A stretch of DNA of 64,000 bases from Hyaloraphidium curvatum (GCA_025558095.1 JAIVFI010000037.1:124001-188000); one strand, 5' to 3'; numbered from the stretch's first letter, positions 1 through 46,784 are shown. A program made the numbers and translations. Notes: generated by a model from the letters alone, not told the origin.

Positions 1-2234
1 CCACGTACGTCGCATTGAGCCGCGACGCCGCCGCTGCGAGCCCCTCGGCGTGCGACAGGGCCCCGCGCAGCTCCGCCTGCGCCGCCGCGATCTCGGCATC
101 CATCGCCGCCAATCCCCCCTCCAGCGCCGCCGCGGCCGCCTCGTGCGACAAACCCTTGGCCACCGCCGCGCGGATCAGATCCTCGACCGTCTCGAGGGCA
201 ACGAGCTGGAGCTCCGCCTGGGCGGTGATGGTCTCGACCGAGAGGTAGGGCACGCGGCGGACGTTCCGCGCGCGGGAGACGGCGAGGTCCCGGGAGAGTG
301 CGAGCAGCGCGCCGCGGGCGGCGGTGGAGCCGGCGTCCGGGGTGGCGGTCGAGCGTGCGCCGAGGGCGGGCGACGATGCGGTGCCTTCGTCGCCGGGGAA
401 GGAGGAGAAGATGTCCAGGATGAAGGCGGTGGCCTCGGTCCTCGCGAACCCGGCCATCTCGGATGCGCATCCGGCTGCCATGCGCATGACGAGCGGGTCC
501 GAGTCGAACGGAGATGCGACGGCCGAGTCCAGCGCGATGGTTCCTTGCGGGAGGCGCACGGGGGTGCGGCTGCGCACGTGGCAGATCCCGTCGTACAACC
601 CCGATGCGTCGGCGTCCAGGGGGGCCGCTGGGGAAGACGTGGCGTGCTTGGCCGAGAAGGATAGGAGGCCGAGGTAGGACAGGTCGGGCTTGGGCGCCCT
701 GCGTGCATCCTGCAGGGCCAGGTAGTCGGCGGCGGGGTGCTGGGCGAGCTCCACGGTGTAGTCCGAGGTCGAGAATAGGCCGATGCGGCGGGCGCGGTCG
801 GCGACGGTGCCTGCGGGGCTGCCGTCGAGGGCGTGGAACGCGCCGATCTGCGACGTCGTTCGGCCGTAGGTGGTCGTCCTCGACGACGCGTTGAGGCCGT
901 TCCAGGTGCCGCTAAAAGCCGGCCACGTGAACCGGTCGACGCCCAAGGCAAGCCAAGGCCCGCCCCCTTGCGAGGGCACGGAGAAGGCGGCGCCGCCGTA
1001 GTCCTGCATGGTCAGCTCGACGGTGGCGTTGATGCAGGTCCGCGTGGGGTCGTCCCATTGGTTGCAGCTCCCGGATCGGAAGCAAAGGGGCGCGTAGGTG
1101 GTTTCGTTGACAGTCGAGCAGTTGGGCACCGAGAGGGCGGCGAGGGTGTCGAACAGTCCAGTGTTTGCGCACATATCGATGGCGTTGTCCCCCGTCTGGG
1201 GGCGCAGCGCGGCTGAGAGGCAGAGCCTGGTTAGTTCTCTGCGTACGCATGCTGAGCGAAAGCAACTTGCCGTTCACGGTGATGTCCTTCTTGGCAGCCA
1301 CGGGGTGGTAAGCCGGGAGCCCGTTGTGCGAGACTCCGAGGGATCCGAACACCTTTGCGGCACGGATGTGCACATCTGGCCCGTAGGCACCCTCCGCGTT
1401 GGGGCCGTGGGACCACACTTCGAGCGTCCCGTTGTCAGACACCACGTTGATTGCCTCGATGCGGACCTTGGTGTATCCCGCGGTGTCCTTGCCGATGGAG
1501 ACGGTCGTGTCCCGGGGAAAGACTACGTTGACCGCGGTCAGGTTCAGCTCGGTGATCTGCGAGAGCTCGACGCCCTTGGCGGCCCCGCGCACGAAATCGG
1601 CGAGGTGCGACATGTCGAGGTCGACAAAGGCCAGGGCGAGGCGGACGTCCGTGATGTCGGGGACGATCGCTGCGGTCTCGGTTGCGGCCAGGACGCCGGC
1701 GGCCAGCTTGGGGCACTTGCTTGCCGCGAGCAACGAAGGCCGGCGGATCGAGAGCGGGTCGGGGTCCGACTGCATTGCTGCCGACTGCGTGCCGAGCCAA
1801 CCGTCGATGCGGCAGTCGTACTCCACGCGCCAGAACTTGGAGGTATCAGGGCACGAGTCCCCGAAGAGGGCGACTGCGTCGACGGCCGGCACACAGCTCT
1901 GCTGCCCGTCGCAGAGCCTAGCGACGTGGGCCGCCAAGGCCGCGCGGATTGCGGGGCTGTACCCGCATTCATCGTCGGCACCGTTTCCGAGCACGGGACA
2001 TGTCTCAGGAAGGCCGTCGATGGCGGGCAGGTCGCGGCCGAAGAAGGCGGCGGAGACGGCGACGGTCGCGGCCGCGGGGCACTCCAGGCGGGGAGCGGCA
2101 TTGCCGCATGCGAGGGCCGAGAGGCCGAAGGTGCCCTGCGAGCGCAGCGGGGCCTGCTGGCGGGCGATGGGGGCCGCGAACGCGGCGGCGGCAAATGCGA
2201 GCGCGAAGGCGGCGGAGAGGAGCGCGCGCGGCAT
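1..2234 (-). CDS. Secreted protein with N-terminal SUEL-type lectin domain (3' end outside window)
   Basis: The reading frame starts at 2234 with a hydrophobic signal peptide (about residues 1-20, ending near AFAAPIA). A cysteine-patterned domain follows (about 35-140): LACGN near its start, then two Cys-containing loops and a VEYDC end. This is the layout of galactose/rhamnose-binding SUEL lectins, and it suggests an extracellular sugar-binding protein. The middle part is beta-rich and unrecognised. Frame and codon bias require one short intron at 1213-1246 (donor GTACGC, branch CTAAC, acceptor CTCAG), joining exon 2234-1247 to exon 1212-1 in phase 1. The second exon stays open to the window edge and ends in an Ala/Glu-rich, probably helical stretch, so the C-terminus is missing. 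The fold assignment rests on motif spacing only; the rest is unknown. Confidence 0.62.
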
Positions 2235-2811
2235 CGCGGCGGGGCGCGGGGGTCGCTTGCTTGCTCGACTTGGAGGAGCCCTCGCGGTGCCCGTGCGGTG
2301 GTGGCGGTCTCCATTCCGGGACCGGTGCTTTAGTACGAGGGCCGCCCGGCGCAGTTTCTAGTTTTCTCGCCGGGAAACGAGGCGTGGCCGTGGCCGCGGC
2401 AGCCTCGTGCGCGGCGGGGTGGAATTGGGTCCCGCCACAGCCGCTCCCGGACTTCCGGCGACGCGGCTTTGCCTCTCGACTTTCTCGCGAGCCACACAAA
2501 GCCCTTCCCGCGGCACTGCAGGCGACCGCGAACTACCACGTGCTCGGTGCCCTGGAGCTGCCGGAGACGGTGCCCTGGAGGTCCCGGAGAGCGACTGCCC
2601 TTTCCCCCGTCCGCCATCGCGATGGTACCTTTCTTCAGCTACAAGCGACGCCGCGTGTGCTCCCAGTCTACATCAGAGAAGACCCATTCTAGTCCGTCAC
2701 CGATGCGAGCTCCGCTCCCACGCCGCTGCGGCGCCGCACGGCTTTGAGTGTCCCCTTTTCTGTCGGAGTTGCTGTGCCCCGCCATAGGCTCGCGCACCCG
2801 CCGCGATTGCC
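2235..2811. other. Intergenic spacer between SUEL-lectin gene and RidA-like gene
   Basis: About 580 nt upstream of the lectin gene and downstream of the RidA-like gene, both on the minus strand. It should hold the lectin promoter and the RidA 3' UTR. I see no convincing coding frame, RNA gene or repeat in it. Confidence 0.4.
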
Positions 2812-10034: not shown

Positions 10035-11093
10035 TCAGGCCGTCCAGCTGACCGTGCCGATCGGAGGAGTCCCCCAAAGGTCCTCCCATTCTTCCGATTC
10101 GACCATCCGCTCCTCTCCGGTCCAATCCCGGTACCATCCGCAGCGGGGCCCCTGGGTCACGCCGGAGAAGGTGACCTTGATCGCGCCATCGACAACCGCC
10201 TGCCTGACCCTCCCAAAGTCCTCCTCCTCAAGTCCGGGTTGCGGCCGCGTGATGGACATCTTTTCGAGGTTCGGCGGCAATCCCCAGGCAAAGTACCTCG
10301 TGGTATCATCCTGAACGCAGCTTGTCGAGGGAGCCCAGCGCGTGCCAAACGTCCCGCTCCGCCCTGTGGAGCCACACGGCGTGCGGATTGAACGTGGAGA
10401 GCTCGAAGAGGTGCAACAGGAGGTCCTGGTTGTAGCTGAAGGTCCAGACTTCCGACATCTTGAAGACAACGCCCGGGAACGGGGACAGGTCCCAGTCGAG
10501 CTCTTGGAACGGCTGGAAGCACCAGCTCTGCAGATGGTCCGTCCTTTCAATGAGCGCAAAGAGGGTATCCAGTCCTAATTCTCTGCAATTCTCGAAGGAA
10601 TTGTCGACCTCAAGGGTGCGCAGCGTCGGGCGAAGGCGAGTGGCCGCGGTGAGCTCCTTCAGAACGACGGGGTGGCTGGCACTGATCTCCAAGTGATTGA
10701 TGCGGGAGACGCGCAGTAGTCCCCAGTTCAAAGGAGCGACGACGTTGTACTGGAAACTCTCGAGGTTGGGGCACCGACGGAAGATCCGTTAAACGAGACG
10801 GCCGGCTTCGGCGCTCCTCTCCGTAAAGAGGCCGACCTTGAAGTCCTCCTTGAACACATCGCCGAGGTCGCCTGCCGCCACGAGGAGCCGAACGCTTTCG
10901 AAAGCCGAGGCCGGCGTCGAAACTTGGACAATGTTACGCCCAGGGCGCGACGCAGGTGGAGTTCGCGGTACAGCACGGGGAACATAACGCTCGAGAGGTA
11001 GCGGCACGCGAGGGCAAGCTCGAGGAGATTGCTTGGAGCCGCTTCCGGGGGAAGACCTTCTCCGAGGAGCTTGGGCACGAGCAGCCGCGACAT
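10035..11093 (-). pseudogene. F-box-like gene, disrupted by frameshifts and a stop
   Basis: From the ATG at 11093 the frame encodes an F-box-like start (LLGEGLPPE...LELALACRYLSSVMFPVLYRELHL). This is the pattern of fungal F-box proteins that recruit substrates to SCF ubiquitin ligases. A later part resembles the usual leucine-rich tail (RRCPNLESF..., HLEISASHP). The high-GC3 frame shifts by one base near 10970. It meets an in-frame TAA at 10789-10791 and shifts again near 10310 before ending at 10035. I could not find splice sites that repair all three breaks. It may be a decayed copy, or the breaks may be assembly errors. Confidence 0.5.
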
Positions 11094-11334
11094 AGTTCAG
11101 AACCTCGGGCGGCAGCCGAGCAGGGCGGGAGCGGCAGGCACGGCGACAGGCAGGTGCGCGATGGTGCCGACTCGGGCTGCTCTCCCTGCTTTCGAGCGGC
11201 GCGGCATTGCTTGGAGTTGCGGCCTGACGCGCGATGGCCGCGCGCGCGCGCGCACCCCGCGTCCCTCAAACTCCGTGACGAATGGGGCGGTGAAGCGCGC
11301 TCTCCACGACTGTTTTCCTCCCGCAACAAGCGCT

Positions 11335-12918
11335 ATGGAGGGCGGAAGCACCGCCGTGGAACTTTCCGGATCCTCGGACTTTGCCGCACCGGCATCCTTC
11401 TTCACGGGGCGCGAATGGCGCGCCCTCTTCCCCTCGGGCGTCCGGCCGCTCGCAAACGCCGTGGACGATGCCGAGAAAGGAGATATCGACGCGCCGGAGG
11501 GGCTGCCGGAAAGAGAACCGTTGACGCGCGAGGCGCTGCTCTCGGAACTGGGCGATACCGCGGCCGGGTTTCTCGTCCGGCTGCAGTTCCGCCTGCAGCC
11601 CATCACCATCGCAATCGGCATTCGACACACGCTCTTTAGCATCCTGTGGCTGACGGCGTCCAACCTCATGTGGCTCTGGAACGACGGCCGCTTCGGGCAA
11701 CAGCAAATGACAGCCTCCACCATTTCGACGGTCCTGAGCGTGTTGCTTACCGCCATATTGCCGCTCAGCACCGTGTACCGGTCGAGTTTTGGCTACAAAG
11801 CGGCCTCGGCCGGCCGCGTTCCCCCGCCAGCATCCCGTCAGCCGGCAACGGGTGGCAACGCAGACGAATCGGGCCACGCATTCGCCGGCATCGCTAGGTT
11901 CCGCGAACTTGTCCGGGCGGAAGGGGGTGAATCGTCACTGCTCAAACACAATGCGAACGATCCGTTATGCCCCTGCCCGCTCGCGAGCTGTGCTGGAGCA
12001 ACGTTGGCAAGAGCTGGGCACTTGCGCGCGCTTGATTCTGCTTTTCGTATCTGCTTCCTCATGGTTTACTCCGTGGTCACCGTATGGACGAGCCTGGTCA
12101 CGTTCGGACCCCAGTGTTGGAGCACTTGGTACGCTGCCGCGTTGGCAGCTCTGTACCTCGTCAGCGCTTTCGTCTGCCACTGGCCCAATCTTTTTGGACG
12201 GACTCCCGCCAACATCGCCACGCTCGGTTTAAGTTTGAGATTGCACCAACGGGCCATGACCCTCGTTCTCAGGTCGATGCTGCGCCGGTACTCGGAACTG
12301 CTCCCGGATCGTCGTTCCCCAACCGCGAATGACCCTTCGACACCGTGGGGTCCTGCCGCGAGGCCCCGCGACGAACCTTATCTGACGCTCCATGCCGCGC
12401 TGGCGGCGACGTGGCGTGACCGGCTACCTTTTCTAGCTTCCGGCACAACACTGAGCCTCGCGTTCTTCGGCGTGTTTGCGGTCCAGCTGGTCATCAACGC
12501 AGCCGCGGGAGGCTGCGTCACCGCCAATGCGCTCTTTCCAGTCGTCTACCTCCTGTACATTTTCACCATCGACGTCGTGACCCTGGCCGCCGCCAATGCG
12601 CAAGTATCCACCCTTACCGAGAAGGTCCTGGACGCCGCGAAAGCGGCCCGGACATTCCTCGCGCGCGCCGAGGCGGAGGGGATGCTGGCCGATCCTGCGG
12701 CTTCCGCCGCGGCACGGGGCCTGGCCAACCACGCCGAGCTGCTCGTGCTGTGCGCCGACAGCGGGAGGTTCAAGGGGCGGTTGTTCGGGTTCGCGGTGGA
12801 CGCGGGCGTGGCGCGCAGCCTCTTCGTCACTGCCTTCACTGTGGGGATCGGGTTCGTCTCGCTGCTCAAGGCCGCAGGGCTCTTCTTCACCATGGACGCG
12901 GTCTGTCCTACGCTTTGA
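11335..12918 (+). CDS. Polytopic membrane protein of a local paralogous family
   Basis: An intronless 527-residue protein with about six or seven hydrophobic helices and a cytosolic N-terminus. The first ATG with coding bias is at 11335; the frame upstream lacks coding character. Conserved points shared with the gene at 39128-40612 are EWRALFP near the N-terminus, NDPLCPC after the second helix pair, a Cys-ended lumenal segment (AGGC) and a final CPTL tail. I recognise no known transporter or receptor signature. The layout (two N-terminal helices, a loop with the DPxCPC motif, a four-helix C-terminal half) is loosely receptor- or channel-like, but that is inference. Confidence 0.7.
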   Translation: MEGGSTAVELSGSSDFAAPASFFTGREWRALFPSGVRPLANAVDDAEKGDIDAPEGLPEREPLTREALLSELGDTAAGFLVRLQFRLQPITIAIGIRHTLFSILWLTASNLMWLWNDGRFGQQQMTASTISTVLSVLLTAILPLSTVYRSSFGYKAASAGRVPPPASRQPATGGNADESGHAFAGIARFRELVRAEGGESSLLKHNANDPLCPCPLASCAGATLARAGHLRALDSAFRICFLMVYSVVTVWTSLVTFGPQCWSTWYAAALAALYLVSAFVCHWPNLFGRTPANIATLGLSLRLHQRAMTLVLRSMLRRYSELLPDRRSPTANDPSTPWGPAARPRDEPYLTLHAALAATWRDRLPFLASGTTLSLAFFGVFAVQLVINAAAGGCVTANALFPVVYLLYIFTIDVVTLAAANAQVSTLTEKVLDAAKAARTFLARAEAEGMLADPAASAAARGLANHAELLVLCADSGRFKGRLFGFAVDAGVARSLFVTAFTVGIGFVSLLKAAGLFFTMDAVCPTL

Positions 12919-23689: not shown

Positions 23690-25412
23690 CTACGCTTGCG
23701 GCTCGAGCTTGGCAAGAGCCGCCAGTGGGAAGACGCCCCGGACCTTCGTGGTCAGGTTCGTTCCCGTGGCCCAGCCGTCCGCGTAGACCTAAAGTTAACA
23801 AGGCGGGTCAACAGGCAAGTCATGACATCCGGAAAACAACACCAACCTCTTCGACCATCACGAGGTTGGACTCGCTAAGGACAATCTCGTCCTCGTTCGT
23901 CGGCACGAAGGTGCGAATGCAAACGTACTTGCCCGTCGCTCCTCGAGAGGCTGTCGAGGCGGAAGCGGAATTCGCCGCCACCGTCCCCGCTGCGGCGGCG
24001 CCGGCGACGCCGGCGGCCCCCGCGAGCGCACCGCCAGCGATTGAGTCCATGGCGATCGTGTAGCCGGGGTAGCCTGCCGCCGTAGGAGAGTCCGGACCCG
24101 ACGGCTGCAGGGTGTAGTTGGCAAGCGGGCTGGCAGCCGCGCCCGGGTCGTTGAAGGAAAGCTCGGCGGGGGGCACGTATGGCGGTGGCTCCTTGCCAGC
24201 AAACGCGAATGTCGCCGAATCGCCCTTGGCCGTCATCTGGGGCTCGGCAAAAGAGACATCCTTGGGTGTCTCGGCGGCGGCGGTGGCGGCGGGTTGGTTG
24301 CGCTTCCGCGTAAAGTACCAGGCGAGCAGGCCCAGGGCAACAAGCAGCGCGAGAACACCAATGACGATCCCGACGATGGCGCCGACGGAGAGACCGCCGC
24401 TGGAAGTCGACCCGTTGGAAGGCACGCAGGAGGTGCCGTCGTAGACAAAGCCGTCCAAGCAGGTGCAGGTAGCCGAGCTGGAGAGCGTAGCGTTGGAGCC
24501 GCCGCAGTGGAGCATGGCGAAGGACTGCATGCGCTGCCTGTTGGCCCGCCAGCCGGTTTGGGCGGTGAAGCCGACGTAGACTTGCGGCGCGCTCCGAAAC
24601 AGGCCAGGGATGTCGAGGTTCGGGCAGGTGAAGTTGACCGTCATCTGGCTCGTGCCCGCTAGCGCTCCGGCATCCGACTGGCCCGGAGGCACGACGTTCG
24701 AGGCATTGACGAACGCGGGCGCTCCGCCACCGGGGTAAAGGAACGTCACGGTCCACTTCCTAAAGTCGCGGAGAGCATACGGTGTCGGCAGCTGGACGTC
24801 GCATTTCACATCTCCCGGCCACATGAACTTGCGGTTGGTGAAGACGGCGATGAAGTTGTTCGGAGGCTCAGCGAGGTCGTCCTCGACACCGACGTTGTTG
24901 GACCAGGAGTCGGCGTGGAGGTGGAAGGTGGGCTCGTTCGAAAGCGGCCTGGGCCGGTCGTAGATCATGTCGGGTCGTCCGTCCGGGAGCTGTGCGGGGG
25001 CCGAGGACCGGATGATGAAGCCCACGCCGTCTGCGCCCGAATAGTTATAGTTGTCGATTGGGGCGCCTTGGGGGAAGGTCTGGATCGGCTCGTCGAGCGT
25101 GAACGAGAAGGTGACGGAGAACGACGAGAGCAGGGACGAGGAAATGGGGGAGTTGAAGTATCCCGCGCCCTCCTGACTGTGGTCCGACGGCGTGAGCTGT
25201 AGATCCCCGCTTTGGAAGGTCGCGTTCCCGCTGCGCGTCCAGTAGGCGGTGCCGAACGCCTGCGACGTGCCCGATACGATCCTCTGGGGCACGGTGTGAG
25301 ATGCCGCAGACGGCGGCCGGGAACGCGGCACCTTCGCGGGGAACGAGTTCTGCGCCATTGCACCCACTACGCCGACAACAAGCAGGCACGCAGTAACAAC
25401 GGCGTCGCGCAT
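23690..25412 (-). CDS. Single-pass receptor-like protein: L-type lectin, TM helix, cytosolic SH3 domain
   Basis: Exons 25412-23847 and 23788-23690 encode 554 residues. A signal peptide (about 1-22) is followed by an L-type (leguminous) lectin domain: FGTAYWTRSGNATF, GADGVGFIIRSS, LHADSWSNNVGVED, and VYVGFTAQTGW near 310. These are the strands that build the carbohydrate pocket. A short Cys pair (CTCLDGF...SCVPS) precedes a transmembrane helix (about 343-365, stop-transfer RKRN). The cytosolic part has a PPPYVPP stretch and ends in an SH3 fold (about 496-551: VPTNEDEIVLSES... VYADGWATGTN... GVFPLAAL). The 58-nt intron (GTTGGT...CTTTAG) splits the SH3 domain. The ATG at 25412 places the signal peptide at the N-terminus. 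A lectin sensor linked to SH3 signalling is the natural inference. Confidence 0.83.
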
Positions 25413-25770
25413 CGCGACGGGCGGCGGATCCCGATGGGCGCGGGCCGAGGGGACGAAGTGGGGCACAGCAACCAGTCGATCCGACCCTTCGTTTCCGATC
25501 ACCCCGCACGCCAAGCCACCTGAACGCAACGTTCGGAACTTAGACTGAATCGCACCTCGGAGACAATCAACGGGTATTGGAAAACATTGTTCGATCCGGG
25601 CTCCAGTGTTCCTGAGTTTGGACGGCATGAAGTTGGAATGGAACGGATCGTCCGATGCCGCAGCAGCCGCAAACCGTACCTGGGCGAGTTACTCAACGAA
25701 ACACACCTGATATTATAGCTCTGGTGTAGCTCGTGCCTCGTGATAAAGGGTGGAACGGGCAGGTGCCGCG

Positions 25771-39127: not shown

Positions 39128-40612
39128 CTACGTCGGTGCGGGGCAGTACGTCTGCAAAGTCACGTACGCCCCGAACCCGCGCAGGATGCTCCAGCACCCA
39201 ACCACAAGGGTCAGCAGCGTCACCGCGATCGTCTTGGCCAGCCCGTAAGTGACCGGCAGACCCGCGAACCGGATCGTGTGGTGCTCCGCGGCTCCCGCGA
39301 GGGCCTGGAGCAGCGCGGCGCGGGCACGCAGGCGGTCCCGCACCGCGTCGCGCTGCGGCGTGGGAGGGAGGCCGGCGGATTCCGAGAGGAGGCCGACGAG
39401 GGAGAGGTGCGCCCCCCGGTACAGCTCACCGATGGCTTCCATCTGGCCGTTGAGGCTCGGGAGCTGGAACACGCCGAGCGCCACGAAGAGAGGGATGTAG
39501 AGAATGCAAGCTAGCACGTATCCCGGAATGCACGATCCTGTGGAGACTGAAATAACCAGTTGAACGACGGCCATTGGGAGGGGCCCGGCGATGATAACAG
39601 CAATAGTCGGGCCGACACCGTAGGCAGACCAGCGCAACGCGTAGCCGCGGTGCAAAACGGTGAAAAGCTCCCTGGCCGGCAACGTATCCGAGTCGAGGGA
39701 GCAGTCCGTCAGGGCCGAGGCAGCGCGGGAAAGGAAGGAAGAGAGGGAGAGGTACGTCGCACGTCGGAACACGCGCGTCCCGATGCGAACGAGTGGGTCG
39801 CTTGCGACGGAAAAGGTGAGAAAAAACGAAGGGAGAGACCACTGGAGGATCGCGAACAGCGAAAAGGCGCCTAGGAAGGCGCTCCACGCCTGCGGCCACA
39901 AGTACTCGCCAAGGTAGACGACCGCGGTCCAGCGGATGAGGAACATGAATAAGGCGGAAGGCACCTGCTGCCCGAGGCTTCGAACAAGGCGCTCCCAGGG
40001 GATCCAGCGCACGAGTGGGGTCGTACACTTGCGGCACGGGCAGAAAGGGTCGCCAGCGACGTGGGCAACGAGCATCGACATTCCTTCCACTTGGAGTTGC
40101 CACAGTCTTCCGAGCTGTTGCACGAAGGCAAGATGCAAATCGCACGGCCTCGGTGCACCTCTGGACGCCTTGTGCACGACCGCGCCGAAGATAACGGTTA
40201 AAGCGGAAACCGTAGCAAGGTTGACCGTGCCTGCAACGAGCTGCGTACGACCAAAGGTGCCCGTCGGATCCAGAAGAAACGGAATAGGCAAGATGCAGAC
40301 CACGCCCAAGGCGTGGACAACGCCCGGCACCCAGGTCAGGCCGTACGACATCCACGGCGAGAGCGTCCGAATGCCCCGCTCCTGGAACGCGAGCCAGCCT
40401 CCACCGCACTTCGCCGCGGCCGCGATCCATTCGTCGTAGGTGATGGGGTCTGCCGGCTCGGCGTGCTTGTCACCCGGGCCCTTGCCGTCCGCTGCGAGGG
40501 GCAGCCGGTCCGCGAACGGCGCGGCAGCGGTCGGGGGCGCGGTCGGGAAAATGGCGCGCCACTCGTGAACCGAAAAGTCCAGAAGGTCCGTCGGCGGCGC
40601 AGGAGGAGGCAT
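39128..40612 (-). CDS. Polytopic membrane protein, paralogue of the gene at 11335-12918
   Basis: Intronless, 494 residues from the ATG at 40612 (MPPPAPPTDLLDF), chosen because it places EWRAIFP at the same distance from the start as in the paralogue. Shared features are EWRAIFP, a first hydrophobic pair, GDPFCPC in the following loop, a Cys (GSCIPGY) at the same place in the second half, and the CPAPT tail (paralogue CPTL). Overall identity is low, so the duplication is old. About seven hydrophobic helices are visible. No known family signature was recognised. A second ATG at 40699 is possible but would add residues without the local codon bias. Confidence 0.7.
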   Translation of the reverse strand: MPPPAPPTDLLDFSVHEWRAIFPTAPPTAAAPFADRLPLAADGKGPGDKHAEPADPITYDEWIAAAAKCGGGWLAFQERGIRTLSPWMSYGLTWVPGVVHALGVVCILPIPFLLDPTGTFGRTQLVAGTVNLATVSALTVIFGAVVHKASRGAPRPCDLHLAFVQQLGRLWQLQVEGMSMLVAHVAGDPFCPCRKCTTPLVRWIPWERLVRSLGQQVPSALFMFLIRWTAVVYLGEYLWPQAWSAFLGAFSLFAILQWSLPSFFLTFSVASDPLVRIGTRVFRRATYLSLSSFLSRAASALTDCSLDSDTLPARELFTVLHRGYALRWSAYGVGPTIAVIIAGPLPMAVVQLVISVSTGSCIPGYVLACILYIPLFVALGVFQLPSLNGQMEAIGELYRGAHLSLVGLLSESAGLPPTPQRDAVRDRLRARAALLQALAGAAEHHTIRFAGLPVTYGLAKTIAVTLLTLVVGCWSILRGFGAYVTLQTYCPAPT

Positions 40613-41006
40613 CGCGGACCAATGGCTGCGGAGAACCGGCGGGACCAGCTCGAGACAAGTAGTGGGATGGTTTACATCCCGATTAAACGCCAGGAACATG
40701 GCCGAAGCAACACCTGGACATGGTCACCAGCGCCCCAAGGCGTGTAGAAGAGCTCCCCATCCACAAAACCAGCAAGCTCAGCAGGTGCGTAGCCATGGCC
40801 GTTGGATTGGGCGGCAAGCGTGCAGGCCGCCAAATCCAGTTGCCAACAATAGCAACCATCACGCCACCAAGCATGTCTCGCCGCGTGCTCACCAGGAAGT
40901 GGAAGGAAGGAAAGCCTGCAAATGTGCAAATGATTCGTGCAGCAGCGTATCGCATGTACAGGTGCAGCGATCACCCTATCTTACACCCCGTCGCCCGGTA
41001 TCCCTG
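40613..41006. other. Intergenic spacer between membrane-protein gene and ion-channel gene
   Basis: About 390 nt: promoter of the minus-strand membrane protein and 3' UTR of the minus-strand channel subunit. A minus-strand frame across 40683-40955 has hydrophobic stretches, but its codon bias does not match neighbouring genes. Confidence 0.3.
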
Positions 41007-43488
41007 TCACGCTGTGTCCTTCCTCTGCAGCGTCGGCACCGTGACCGTCATCTCTGGAGGCACCAGCAGCCCCGGCGACTCGGGTCCCGCGGCGCCGACC
41101 ACCGACTCGGTGCCGCCGCTCTGCACCCGGTCCAGGTTCCCGCTCGGCGCCCTCTCGAGGTTCCCGCTCGGCGTCCTGTCCACGCCCGACATCGACGGCC
41201 TCCTCGGCGACCCGTACGTCACGCCAACCTCGATCCCGTTCACCCGGAGGATGCTCCCCCTCCTCCCCCTGAGGTCCCCGCTCGCGGCGCGCAGCACCTC
41301 GGCCCCGTTCTCGGCCGCGAACTGCTCCCCCGTGATCCCCATGGTGTCCGCGACCAGCTGCGCCTCCCTCGCGCGCATCAGATCCGCGTCCATGCTCCGC
41401 CGGTCGATCCGCTCCCGCTCCGTCAGCGGCGGCGGCGCGACCTTCTCCGTGCCGGTCGGAGACTTGGACACCCCCTCGGCCTCGGCCCGCAGCCGGGCCA
41501 GCGCGGCCTCGCCGGGGATCTGGAGGTGCAGGAAGCGGAAGGCGGCGTCGGTGGAGCGCACGATGAAATCGTGCATGCGCCGCTTGAACGTGCCCGGCGC
41601 GCCGATGTCCATCGAGCCCGCGACGTATTCGCCAAAGTCCTCCAGATGTTCGCGGCCGTAGACCGACCGCTCGAGCTCCTGCCGCACGTGGTACCGCTTG
41701 TAAGTGTAGTACGCCATCAGCCAGAGGTTGGCGATCAGCAGCAGTCCCATGAGGATGCCGCACAAAAGCCACAACCACGGGAAACTGCCCTGGGGAAGCT
41801 GCACGAGGATGGCGATGTTGAACAGGGCCCAGAAGGGCAGGACGGTGCGGCGGCAGAAAAAGTCGAGCTCGGTGGCGAGGATGTGGTTGCCCTCGCGCTT
41901 GACGAGGTGGTGGATGATGGCGACCTCGAGCAGCGAGAAGAAGGCCACGACGAAGGACACGAAGACGTACCTGGAGCGGGATCAGCGGTGAGCGTTCACA
42001 CAGTCGGCGGCAACCCACCAGTCGATCGTAGTCGCGTAGTTGACGAGCGGCAGCCCCGCAGTCACCGAGCTATAGAACGATACTACATCCCCCGCACATC
42101 AGCCTCACCACCAAGATACACCACACAGGAACCCACCGATGGTGAGCACGAGCGTGATGCTCAGACCAAGCCGCTCCGGCACGGCCTCGACGCTCAGCCA
42201 GTAGCTGACGGCGGTCAGCGCGACCAGGAGGAGGAGGGGGAGGAACGACTTGATGTAACTGCGCGGAAAGAGGAGTCAGGAGAGATCGGCGGCGCAATAA
42301 GCGCGAGACACGCACTAGCTGCCCGACTTGCGGCTGATGTACATCTGGAACTTGAGCAGGTCGTACGCCGGCTGCCCCTGCCGCGAGTAATACTTTTCCC
42401 TGCTCGCCTGGTAGGTCTGGTAGTCCCACGTGACCTGCGAGAAGGTCTCGGGGTTGATGGGCGGGTACACCGTCTCGGGCTGCCAGAACACGGCCATCTG
42501 GTTCTCGTTGTACGAGTACGAGGTGAGCTGCATCTCCAGGACCTGACGGTCGAAGGGGAATGCTCCGAGGTAGAAGGAGTTGGTGAGCTGCACGACAAAG
42601 TGCCGGGACCAGAAGACGTCCCCGGTGTAGGGGGTGAGCTTGATAACCTCGTCCAGCGTCACGGGGTCGACTTCGTTGGCAAAGTAGATGTCGGGCGTCC
42701 ATATGGCGCTGCATGGTGATGGTCAAACGCGTGCCGGCCGCAAGACGGGTCGGTACCCACTGAGTGGGGCCCCATCCGCCGCCGAGGGCGACAGATCCCA
42801 TGATGCGGTAGTCGGATCCGTTGGGCGAGGGAAAGTCATCCGGGGAGACGATGAGCCGGGGGTCGTTCCAGTACAGGCGGAGGAAGACGTCGATGGTGAA
42901 GGTCGAGGTCACGGGGTCCACGTCGTAGAGGTTGTTCACGCGGAACTGTTGCCGCCGGAACGGCCGGGAACGATGCGGAAAAATGCGCGGGGCAGGGCGA
43001 AGGGCGCGGAGGAGGCCGGTCAGCCGATCCGCGTTCGCAGGAAAAGCCGGTCGGCCTGGCGGAGCGCGCAGGGACGCACCTGAGCACGAACAGGGGTGGC
43101 ACCCTGGCCGAATCCGGGCCGAGTGCCTGCGAGGACGAGCAAAAGAAATGAGCCCCGAGGCCGGCCGGGGTCCGCCGGGCCACGCACCGGCGTCGTACGG
43201 GGTGTCTTCTCCGGCCACGGCACTTTGGAGCACCTTTGTGGCATTCTCGAACGCGAAACCCGGGTACAGCCGCGGCAGCAGGTGCCTGCGATCGAACTGG
43301 TGCAGCTGCGGGGCCACGGCGTGCGGCGACGGCTCGTCCCGCATGGGTGGCCGCGGACCGCCGTTGGCCCACGAGCCCCGGCGGCCCAGGAACCGTGGGC
43401 GGCCCGGAGCGGCGAGCGCCGTCGGCGCAAACAGTGCGAAGAGGAGGAGCGCGGTGCACGCGCGCACGGCGAGGTTCGGCGGCCGCAT
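41007..43488 (-). CDS. Pentameric ligand-gated ion channel subunit (Cys-less loop)
   Basis: Seven exons in perfect phase: 43488-43188, 43126-43080, 42945-42761, 42708-42316, 42258-42137, 42082-42019 and 41970-41007 (691 residues). A signal peptide (about 1-27) is followed by the extracellular beta-sandwich: LYDVDPVTSTFTIDVFLRLYWNDPRL, loop A IWTPDIYF, and AFPFDRQVLEMQL where animal receptors have the Cys loop. Both loop cysteines are absent, as in prokaryotic GLIC/ELIC. M1 is FLPLLLLVALTAVSYW; the M1-M2 link is VEAVPERLGL; M2 has T6' and L9' (SITLVLTIVSFYSS). M3, M4 and a 250-residue intracellular/C-terminal tail with SGNLERAPSGNL repeats follow. P at -2' resembles anion channels, but E at -1' resembles cation channels. 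It is head-to-head with its paralogue. Confidence 0.9.
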
Positions 43489-43695
43489 GGTCGGAGCCGT
43501 TGCTCGGGGAACGAGGTCGGTTTGTCGGTCGGCCCAGCCCCGCCCAGGGTCCGGCGGGGCGGGCCGCCTTTGCATCAAAACCCGCACCGCCGGGGGCACG
43601 CGGATCGGGGCTTACGCCGGCGCTTCCCGCCGGCCGCGGCCGCACGACGAGCCTGCGTTGAGCCGGACGCGGCCGAGGCGTCGTCGGGCCGCAGA
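43489..43695. promoter_or_regulatory. Short bidirectional promoter between two ion-channel subunit genes
   Basis: Only 207 nt separate the two start codons (43488 minus, 43696 plus), so both subunits must share regulatory DNA and are probably co-expressed. The sequence is very GC-rich; no TATA-like element is evident. Confidence 0.6.
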
Positions 43696-45602
43696 ATGCC
43701 CCCCACGCTGACCGCACGTCCGCCGGGCGGCACCCGCCCAACCGCAGCCGGAAAACGACCAGCCCGCCCGGCAGCATGGACTGCCCTCCTTGCATTTGCC
43801 ATCTCCATTGTGCTCTGGATTTTCCCTGGCCCGACCGCCGCCGCCGTCGAGGGCTGGTCGCTCACCAACGCGACCAAGGTCATCTTGAACTCCCTTCTCG
43901 ACGCGGGATACGACGCCGCGTCCAGGCCGGGCTTCGGCAGCGGTGCGCCCACCCCAGTTTATGCCCAGCTGCAGATCATATCGCTGTACGAGGTCGATCC
44001 GCTCTCGTCGACGTTCACCGTGGACGTCGAGCTAACCCTGCGATGGAACGACCCGCGCCTGGTCTTCAACTACGACGACTACCCTGTGCCCGAGGGCTCG
44101 GACCTGCGTTTAATCGGGTACACCGAACTCGGCAGCGGGATTGGACCCACGCACATAATATGGACGCCCGACGTCTACTGGGAGAACGAGGTCGATCCCG
44201 TGATTTTGAACCAGGTCATCAAATTAGCACCGGGCACCGGCGACCTGACGTGGACGCGGCACTACCTGGTGCAACTGACGTCGGTATTTAGCTTCCAGTC
44301 CTTCCCCTTCGATTTGCAGGTCGGTGGACGCACGTCGTATCGCGCAGCGTCGCTGACCTCCCCCCCCCCCCCCCCCCCTCGCAAGGACCTGCGCCTCATG
44401 CTCACCCCCTACTCCTACAACTCGCTCCAGATGTCCCTTTACTGGAGCGAACCCCCGATCGCCCCCGAGCCCGCCTCCTTCAACCACGCTACGTTCGACT
44501 ACAGATCGTACAAGGTCGCGCGCGAGCTCTTCATTTCGCGAGAGGGCCAGCCCACCTACGACCGCCTCATCATCGACGTGGCCGTAACGCGCCGGAGCGA
44601 CGGGTACATCATCAAGGCCAACCTGCCCCTCATCCTGCTCGTCGCGCTGTCGGCCGTAAGCTACTGGCTCAGCGTCGAGGCCGTCCCCGAGCGCCTCGGC
44701 CTCGTCGGTGCGTGTCCCGTGCCGCACGCGCAACCGCATGCACGCCTGACCGTCCCCTCCGCATCCAGTCACCCTCGTCCTAACCGTCGTCTCGTTCTAC
44801 TCCACCGTCACCGCCGGGCTCCCCGCCGTCAACTACCCGACGACGATGGACCTGTACGTGTTCGCCTGCTTCTTCGTGACCTTCATGGCGCTCGTGGAGG
44901 TGGCCGCGGTGCACCACCTCGTGGTGCGGAGGAACGACGTGGTCATGGCGACGGAGCTAGACTACTACTGCCGGAGGGTCGTGCTCCCCGTGTGGGCCAT
45001 CTTGTGGGTCTCCCCTTCCGGTCTGCCGGTTGTTGAATGCGTGCTGATGCGGCCCCCCGCGCAGCAACCTGATCCTGATCCAGAACGGCGGCCAGGCCCT
45101 CGGCATCTGCATCGGCGTCGCCATCTTCGTCATCATCATCTGGAACGCGTGGATCTTCTACTACCGCGTGCGCAAGCGGAAGCAGCGCGCCTTTGAGGCT
45201 ACCGCCGACGGCGACGAGCGCCTCGAGAGGAAGGCGTACAAGCGCGAGCTGGGCAAGCTGGTGCGTTGGACCGACAAGCTGTACAAGTTCCTGCACATCC
45301 GGCCGCCCGTGAGCGACGAGCAGGCCGCGAAAGAGCACATGGAGGAGCTGGAGCGGATGGCCGAGGCGGAGAGGCTGTGGCTGGAGGAGCAGCGCGAGGC
45401 CGAGGCGGCCGAGGCGGCGGCGATGGCCAGGGCCGGGTCGCCGAGCTCGGCCAAGAGGGCGGGGAGCTCCAGGGCCGGGTCGCCGACCGACGCCAAGAGG
45501 AGGGGGAGCTCGAGGGCGGAGTCGCCCGCGGACGTGAACAGGGAGGGGAGCGGGAACGGGAGCTCGTTGGGTACCGCAGTCGAGGACTCGGGGTCGCGGT
45601 GA
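43696..45602 (+). CDS. Pentameric ligand-gated ion channel subunit (Cys-less loop), paralogue
   Basis: Four exons: 43696-44319, 44386-44707, 44769-45003 and 45065-45602 (572 residues). Signal anchor about 25-48, then the ligand-binding sandwich: ISLYEVDPLSSTFTVDVELTLRWNDPRL, GPTHIIWTPDVYWENEVDP, and SFPFDLQ without Cys-loop cysteines. The pore region nearly equals the partner: LPLILLVALSAVSYWLSVEAVPERLGL, then VTLVLTVVSFYSTVTAGLP, again P-2', E-1', R0', T6', L9'. M4 is AIFVIIIWNAWIFYY. A charged helix (ERMAEAERLWLEEQREAEAAEAAA) and RAGSPSSAKRAGSS-type Ser/Arg repeats end the protein. The first intron (66 nt) contains an 18-C tract as its pyrimidine tract and keeps the frame. Two of the three introns lie at sites also used in the partner gene. 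Pentamers may be homomeric or mixed. Confidence 0.9.
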
Positions 45603-45928: not shown

Positions 45929-46784
45929 ATGGCCGAAGACTGCCCCGCCGGCACGTGGTGCCACTTCCTGGCATTCACCGCGGCCCCCTTCCTGGGCAGC
46001 CTCTTCGCCTTGGCGCTCTACCTGTCCCCCTTCCCGGCCGTCCTTCGAGTACGGTCCTCCGGCCGCCTGGGCGCGCTCAACACCTTCCCGTACCCGTTCA
46101 TCGTCGGCAACTGCTTCGCGTGGCTGTTCTACGGCTACTTCCTGCGGGACCCGTACCTTGTCCTGCCCAACGTGTTCGGCGCGTGCACAGGGTTCCTGTA
46201 CGTCGGGCTCACGGGCCCCTTCCTGGACGCCGCGGCGAGCCTGCGCAACTCTGTCGCGCTGGCGGTGCTCGTGGGATGGGATCTGCTCGGGGCGCACGTG
46301 GCGTTCGTGTTTTTCGGGCCCGGGGACGAGGGGAAGAAGGTGCTCGGGTGGTGCGCCGTGATCATGAACGTGGCCTTCTTTGCCAGCCCGCTGTCTGCGC
46401 TCTGGAAGATCCTGAGGTCCGGAGACGCGTCGTCGGTGCACCTGCCGCTGGCCGTGGCGACGGTGGTGAACTGCTCCCTGTGGACGACCTACGTGGGTTT
46501 CTCGCCCTAGCTTTCGCTCCCCTCGTGCTGACAGCCCTCCTGGACGTTCATTTCAGGGCTTCTTCCTCAGGGATCCTTTCATATTCTTCCCGAACGCGTT
46601 TGGGCTGCTCTCGGCCGTGGCTCAGCTCATTCTCGCCTGCGTGTTCCCCCGGCTGGAGCTTTCGGAGGACACCGAGCCTGTCGCGAACGGCGTTGCCCAC
46701 GCGGACGAGGAGGCACAGGATGCGGACGGGGAGACGGATGTCAGGGCGCCGGTGCTGCCGAAGCGGGGAGCGGGGCACGTGTGA
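45929..46784 (+). CDS. SWEET-family sugar transporter
   Basis: Exons 45929-46492 and 46557-46784 give 263 residues with seven hydrophobic helices arranged as two MtN3/saliva triple-helix bundles. Repeat 1 carries the Pro-Asn and W-F-Y-G motif (YPFIVGNCFAWLFYGYFLRDPYLVLPNVFG). Repeat 2 carries its counterpart (SLWTTYGFFLRDPFIFFPNAFG). The intron (64 nt, GTGGGT...TTTCAG) lies in the middle of the second motif, and removing it restores WTTYGFFLRDP exactly. SWEETs are bidirectional sugar uniporters. This one should sit in the plasma or a vacuolar membrane. The ATG at 45929 (MAEDCPAGTW) leads straight into helix 1. The tail is acidic. Confidence 0.9.

Follow-up and report, generated by a model that had tools for sequence, protein, structure and literature searches.

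Two divergently transcribed Cys-less pentameric ligand-gated channel genes in the fungus Hyaloraphidium curvatum and their expanded family

A survey of pentameric ligand-gated ion channels (pLGICs) across life detected none in Fungi (Jaiteh, Taly and Henin, PMC4795631). The 64,000-nucleotide stretch of Hyaloraphidium curvatum DNA analyzed here (the window; ~66% GC) contains two genes in head-to-head orientation, W_minus and W_plus, which a preliminary description had taken for Cys-less pLGIC subunits in a fungus-like genome. They raise the question of whether a fungus does possess such channels and, if so, where these came from and how they would work. Taken as a whole, the data are probably best explained by a fungal pentameric ligand-gated channel whose two unequal subunit types are encoded by this gene pair.

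Both genes could be rebuilt from the DNA by removal of GT-AG introns of 48-134 nt, which left complete and intact reading frames and bore out a pair of divergent paralogues whose start codons lie 207 nt apart (Table 1). A second in-frame ATG is located ~25-30 codons upstream of the chosen W_minus start; the latter was preferred because the signal peptide comes directly after it, and a hydrophobic stretch of the signal-peptide type is present at the N-terminus of both proteins. In the profile search that the preliminary description had proposed, both proteins scored above the Pfam gathering cut-offs for Neur_chan_LBD (PF02931; 2.8e-26 for W_minus, 3.5e-20 for W_plus) and Neur_chan_memb (PF02932; 4e-17 and 1.2e-15, respectively). 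W_minus also matched the NCBIfam model TIGR00860 at 2e-50, yet below the model's own cut-off. The WTPD loop A and the FPFDxQ loop reported earlier are present, the latter as FPFD(R/L)Q, and both loop cysteines are indeed lost: their positions are occupied by Asn and Leu in W_minus and by Ser and Leu in W_plus, and the other paralogues have no cysteine pair either. The (F/Y)PxD loop, the Arg before the first membrane helix (M1), the M1 Pro and the M2-M3 Pro are found in 9/9 sequences. Judged by their sequences, the two genes are real, divergent pLGIC paralogues, with a resemblance far beyond chance, and their anatomy, family membership and paralogy can be regarded as established at this level.

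The pair is part of an expanded family. A genome search with both Pfam models, followed by spliced alignment to obtain gene models, yielded seven additional genes of this type along with a divergent one, all with intact spliced models; additional 3' introns that the aligner placed in the tails, where conservation is low, were discarded. An independent probe spanning the region from M4 to the tail recovered the nine loci of this type, window pair included, and no further ones in the genome. For the tandem genes C6a1 and C6a2, the identity per codon position (0.91/0.96/0.66) and a ratio of non-synonymous to synonymous substitution rates (dN/dS) near 0.1 indicate protein genes under selection. 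The two intron sites said to be shared by the window pair were not recovered in the family alignment, in which none of the six W_minus introns coincides with any of the three W_plus introns. W_minus has one intron site in common with C1_p and two with C1_m, C1_p and C39. C6b_m and C6b_p have a common phase 0 intron site after VNYA/VNYP (L018 3280 and 5556) that occurs in no other family member and may represent an ancestral intron or the result of gene conversion.

The window is part of C37, one of 55 contigs in a eukaryote assembly totaling 31.9 Mb. The EF1A protein of this genome carries the opisthokont insertion GEFEAGISKDGQTREH, and a genome search detected Lys2, an aminoadipate reductase of fungal type that is nearly complete and spread over two reading frames (746 and 684 bits), along with Chitin_synth_1 genes. 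Together, the EF1A insertion, the aminoadipate route to lysine and the fungal chitin synthases mark the host as a fungus, which substantiates its earlier designation as fungus-like. A conserved 18S pattern found no match in the host assembly. The channel introns show GTGSGT-like donors and poly-C tracts, as does the host EF1A gene, and this matching intron style argues that the channel genes are not contaminants. Runs of ~19-20 C are found in the W_plus intron at 44320-44385 and in the EF1A locus (L022/L023), probably reflecting the polypyrimidine tract style of the host genome. Cys-less pLGICs have been described in Monosiga, Capsaspora, green algae, stramenopiles, others and some invertebrates, lophotrochozoans included, with pLGICs scattered among protists (PMC4795631). 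Our literature search, covering part of the literature, retrieved no later report of fungal pLGICs; automatic annotations may exist.

To place the family within the superfamily, trees and profile scores were based on animal and bacterial pLGICs, verified against PDB chains. The best PDB matches are animal glycine receptors (GlyR), at 1.1e-35 for a single protein and 7.9e-44 for the family profile, with an identity of ~30%. The family profile scores 151 bits for GlyR, 121 for the GABA-A receptor beta3 subunit, 92 for ELIC, 73 for GLIC, 52 for the alpha7 nicotinic acetylcholine receptor (nAChR) and 43 for 5-HT3A. Similar to animal glycine and GABA-A receptors, the family has an N-terminal helix with a YDxxxRP motif, the motifs WNDPRL and WxPD, the FPxD loop, an M1-M3 region that aligns without gaps and with equal M1-M2 loop length, as well as -2'Pro and 0'Arg. 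It differs from them in lacking the Cys-loop cysteines, in having -1'Glu for Ala, an M3-M4 loop of ~15 residues and a ~12-residue insertion before loop A, and in its extra helix M5 and predicted cytosolic tail. Bacterial ELIC and GLIC have the same Cys-less loop and short M3-M4 loop, and M2 of ELIC also starts with Ser-Glu-Arg-Leu, but neither contains M5 or the N-terminal helix with its YDxxxRP motif. With the longest branches removed, the tree places the bacterial sequences on one side (92/94), with the family outside them and beside, not inside, the animal groups. Approximately unbiased (AU) tests rejected a grouping of the family with GLIC (p 0.006) or an Eremiobacteria sequence (p 0.017), were borderline for ELIC (p 0.046) and allowed a grouping with the animal anion receptors (p 0.27). 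The phylogeny that had been called for, run with bacterial and animal references, thus disfavors a bacterial grouping and leaves the animal anion grouping undecided. The earlier hint of a prokaryote-like affinity is not supported, in view of the profile scores, the animal-type N-terminal helix and the rejected GLIC and Eremiobacteria groupings. Within the superfamily, we infer a eukaryotic affiliation for these genes, with the animal anion-type receptors as their neighbors in the reference set used.

With long branches and a tree of animal and bacterial references, these results fit either vertical retention since an early opisthokont ancestor or transfer from one eukaryote to another. Transfer from an animal, alga or protist, followed by multiplication, is a real possibility that we would discount only slightly. 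It is favored by the scattered distribution of pLGICs among protists and the lack of detected members in Fungi (PMC4795631), and by the fact that animal anion-type receptors are the nearest relatives at hand, whereas the GlyR identity of only ~30%, the host-like introns and GC content and the deep divergence of the paralogues argue against it and imply that any such transfer would be old. The true sister group is most likely to be found among the protist and invertebrate Cys-less pLGICs, which are likewise eukaryotic and Cys-less, as judged by description; they are reported outside Fungi, and the text of the survey mentions no fifth helix (PMC4795631).

The family tree also bears on the head-to-head arrangement. 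W_plus and C6b_p group together (100/100), as do the seven other genes, here referred to as the minus type (100/100). These groupings indicate that the plus/minus split predates the split between the C37 and C6b loci, such that a mixed head-to-head pair pre-existed and was then kept at both loci, with 207 and 204 nt between the start codons. A sister relationship of W_minus and C6b_m was not rejected (p 0.31). Alternatively, the arrangement could reflect the usual local inverted duplication, devoid of functional meaning, with each subunit forming homomers. This explanation accords with the C1_m/C1_p pair, which lies inside the minus type, so that the head-to-head arrangement must have arisen more than once, as well as with the solitary C39 gene and the spacers of the three pairs, which have no motif in common; however, it is rather unlikely, given that a mixed pair older than the C37/C6b split survived duplication. 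A segmental duplication of the whole neighborhood was rejected, as only weak paralogous neighbors and no common gene order were found. A difference between the two members is apparent at the position of the GlyR loop D arginine, which we take to be the residue holding the agonist carboxylate: in the three head-to-head pairs, it is occupied by Arg, Arg and Lys in the minus-strand members versus Thr, Leu and Leu in the plus-strand members. The presence of a basic residue in minus-strand members only suggests heteromers of minus and plus subunits, and it is tempting to liken this asymmetry to the way GABA-A receptors divide into alpha and beta subunits. Co-expression of the pair and assembly into mixed pentamers, supported by the two kept minus/plus pairs, appear plausible.

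The pore motif -2'Pro -1'Glu 0'Arg is found in eight of the nine paralogues and replaced by Thr-Asp-Arg in the ninth, with an M1-M2 loop that aligns to GlyR without gaps. The -2'Pro -1'Ala 0'Arg signature of the anion group is thus absent, position -1' being Glu in eight genes and Asp in one. In GlyR, the exchange of Ala-1' for Glu alone suffices for cation permeability. Given the acidic ring at -1' in an M2 that is otherwise of glycine-receptor type, the channels of this family are predicted to be permeable to cations. Pro-Ala-Arg constitutes an anion filter (PMC7385131), and an intermediate-ring Glu accompanies cation selectivity, Pro-Ala anion selectivity (PMC4055736).

Instead of the four membrane helices initially described, hydropathy predicts five. 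All nine genes encode M1-M4 and a predicted further helix, M5, past M4, which would be a departure from the usual four-helix layout but not from homology; the divergent C4 gene has no M5 and only four helices by hydropathy. M5 has a Kyte-Doolittle score of 2.2-2.7 and is followed by a net charge of +2 to +5, whereas the M4-M5 turn carries no positive charge. When applied to these flanks, the positive-inside rule predicts that the C-terminal tails, 108-271 aa in length, are cytosolic. From M4 through the proximal tail, the minus-type genes show 64-72% identity, compared to 53-58% over their full length, indicating that this segment is under constraint. A single-sequence AlphaFold2 prediction for one exon piece of W_minus, of low confidence (mean predicted local distance difference test score, pLDDT, of 64), gave a helical M4-M5 hairpin with M5 as one long helix. 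RxxS sites are in excess over shuffled sequences in both window tails (p ~0.003 and <0.0005), an indication only of a basophilic-kinase pattern. A DxDGDGK motif resembling a calcium-binding loop occurs in the predicted cytosolic tails of C1_m, C1_p (L019) and C39 (L020) only. Alternatively, these proteins could be usual four-helix receptors, in which the putative M4 would be an intracellular or surface helix, the last helix the true M4 and the tail extracellular. The hydropathy of M4 (1.4-1.8), which is among the least hydrophobic segments and below threshold in C6b_p, would fit this arrangement, but GlyR M4 aligns with the putative M4 in an HMMER profile alignment, an external tail would break the positive-inside rule in all nine genes, and the kinase-type RxxS runs also speak against it, making it improbable. 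An acquisition of the family from bacteria, finally, is highly improbable and already disfavored: the Cys-less loop and short M3-M4 loop do resemble those of ELIC and GLIC, but the eukaryotic N-terminal helix with YDxxxRP, the ELIC and GLIC scores well below that of GlyR and the tree tests argue against it, and scans for a bacterial, plasmid or viral source revealed no close relative (none in plasmids or viral contigs).

In a fungal channel composed of two unequal subunit types, we infer ligand, selectivity, topology and assembly as follows. A small ligand would be bound by the ectodomain at the subunit interfaces, with the complementary face of the minus type holding it via the loop D Arg or Lys and the plus type serving as partner. 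Binding would move the Pro-loop against the pre-M1 region and the M2-M3 loop to open the M2-lined pore, whose acidic -1' ring would pass cations. With the fifth helix, the C-terminus would end up on the cytosolic side; its tail, a possible target of phosphorylation, would stand in for the intracellular domain that animal receptors have between M3 and M4. A single divergent promoter would drive the production of both the minus and the plus subunit. The most specific version of this scheme, an expanded fungal family of channels that resemble glycine receptors and have five helices in each subunit, with a cation-conducting Pro-Glu-Arg filter, obligate two-type heteropentamers encoded by divergent pairs and an intracellular domain at the cytosolic C-terminus, is possible but tentative. 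Several points weigh against the overall interpretation. Transcripts, expression, ligand and current are predictions from sequence, and the topology is predicted from hydropathy and flanking charges, with a single low-confidence fold. Selectivity could be mixed or anionic, because 0'Arg and Pro-2' also belong to anion filters. Subunit asymmetry cannot be proven from only three pairs; moreover, the C1 pair originated within the minus type and the three spacers lack a common motif. Finally, the tree has weakly supported deep branches and neither establishes nor rejects a grouping with animal anion receptors.

Among the neighboring genes, a SWEET-type sugar transporter with two repeats (PF03083) directly follows W_plus (45937-46784, plus strand). 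Two multi-membrane proteins (39131-40723, minus strand; 11002-12915, plus strand) form one family with members at L019 8-529 and L038 8599-9465, a family that also adjoins the C1 channel pair. Neither had a Pfam match, and the former had no PDB match either; they may resemble insect gustatory-receptor-like proteins. The window further encodes a SUEL rhamnose-binding lectin domain (912-2354, minus strand) and a protein whose weak matches to L-type lectin and EGF fall short of the cut-offs (23823-25688, minus strand).

Table 1. Features of the channel gene pair and its paralogues (window positions unless a locus is named)
Feature	Position	Strand	Basis
W_minus pLGIC subunit, 691 aa, 7 exons	41007..43488	-	Spliced model, GTGSGT donors; Pfam
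W_minus exons	43488-43188, 43126-43080, 42945-42761, 42708-42316, 42258-42137, 42082-42019, 41970-41007	-	Spliced model
W_minus layout: signal peptide, ligand-binding ectodomain, M1-M4, extra helix M5, 234-aa tail	41007..43488	-	
W_plus pLGIC subunit, 572 aa, 4 exons, layout as W_minus, 148-aa tail	43696..45602	+	Spliced model; Pfam
W_plus exons	43696-44319, 44386-44707, 44769-45003, 45065-45602	+	Spliced model
Putative bidirectional promoter: 207-nt spacer of 77% GC separating the two start codons	43489..43695	.	Gene-model coordinates
Cys-less Pro-loop FPFDRQ of W_minus	42543..42560	-	Alignment with GlyR, nAChR, ELIC, GLIC
Cys-less Pro-loop FPFDLQ of W_plus, end of exon 1	44302..44319	+	Spliced model and alignment
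Arg139 of W_minus, aligned to GlyR loop D arginine	42877..42879	-	Alignment
Thr114 of W_plus, equivalent position	44035..44037	+	Alignment
Pore motif -2'Pro -1'Glu 0'Arg of W_minus	42171..42179	-	Gap-free alignment to GlyR Pro-Ala-Arg
Pore motif -2'Pro -1'Glu 0'Arg of W_plus	44686..44694	+	Alignment
M4 of W_minus, LDFFCRRTVLPFWALFNIAILV, ~15 residues past M3	41802..41858	-	Hydropathy; HMMER alignment to GlyR M4
Extra helix M5 of W_minus, then basic residues	41712..41768	-	Hydropathy; low-confidence fold
Extra helix M5 of W_plus, then RVRKRKQR	45099..45155	+	Hydropathy
Predicted cytosolic tail of W_minus, 6 RxxS sites (shuffles 1.9)	41007..41711	-	
Predicted cytosolic tail of W_plus, 7 RxxS sites (shuffles 2.0)	45156..45602	+	
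C6a1 and C6a2, tandem, youngest pair			
C6b_m and C6b_p, head-to-head, start codons 204 nt apart			
C1_m and C1_p, head-to-head, start codons 308 nt apart			
C39, single gene			
C4, divergent, intronless, four-helix, without signal peptide, Gly-Gly-Arg before M2, tree place unsure	L021 3447-4574	-	

Collectively, our findings place an established receptor superfamily in a host where it had not been expected. Both the filter and the predicted topology deviate from the textbook arrangement. The existence of an intact, nine-member family in one fungus implies that the loss of pLGICs in Fungi was incomplete or that the family was regained. H. curvatum thus offers a non-animal opisthokont for studying fast ligand-gated signalling, and its mixed Pro-Glu-Arg filter represents a natural version of ion-selectivity mutants. 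The fifth helix and cytosolic tail, if true, would constitute an unfamiliar route to a pLGIC intracellular domain. Moreover, the duplicated minus/plus pair makes the evolution of heteromers testable outside animals.

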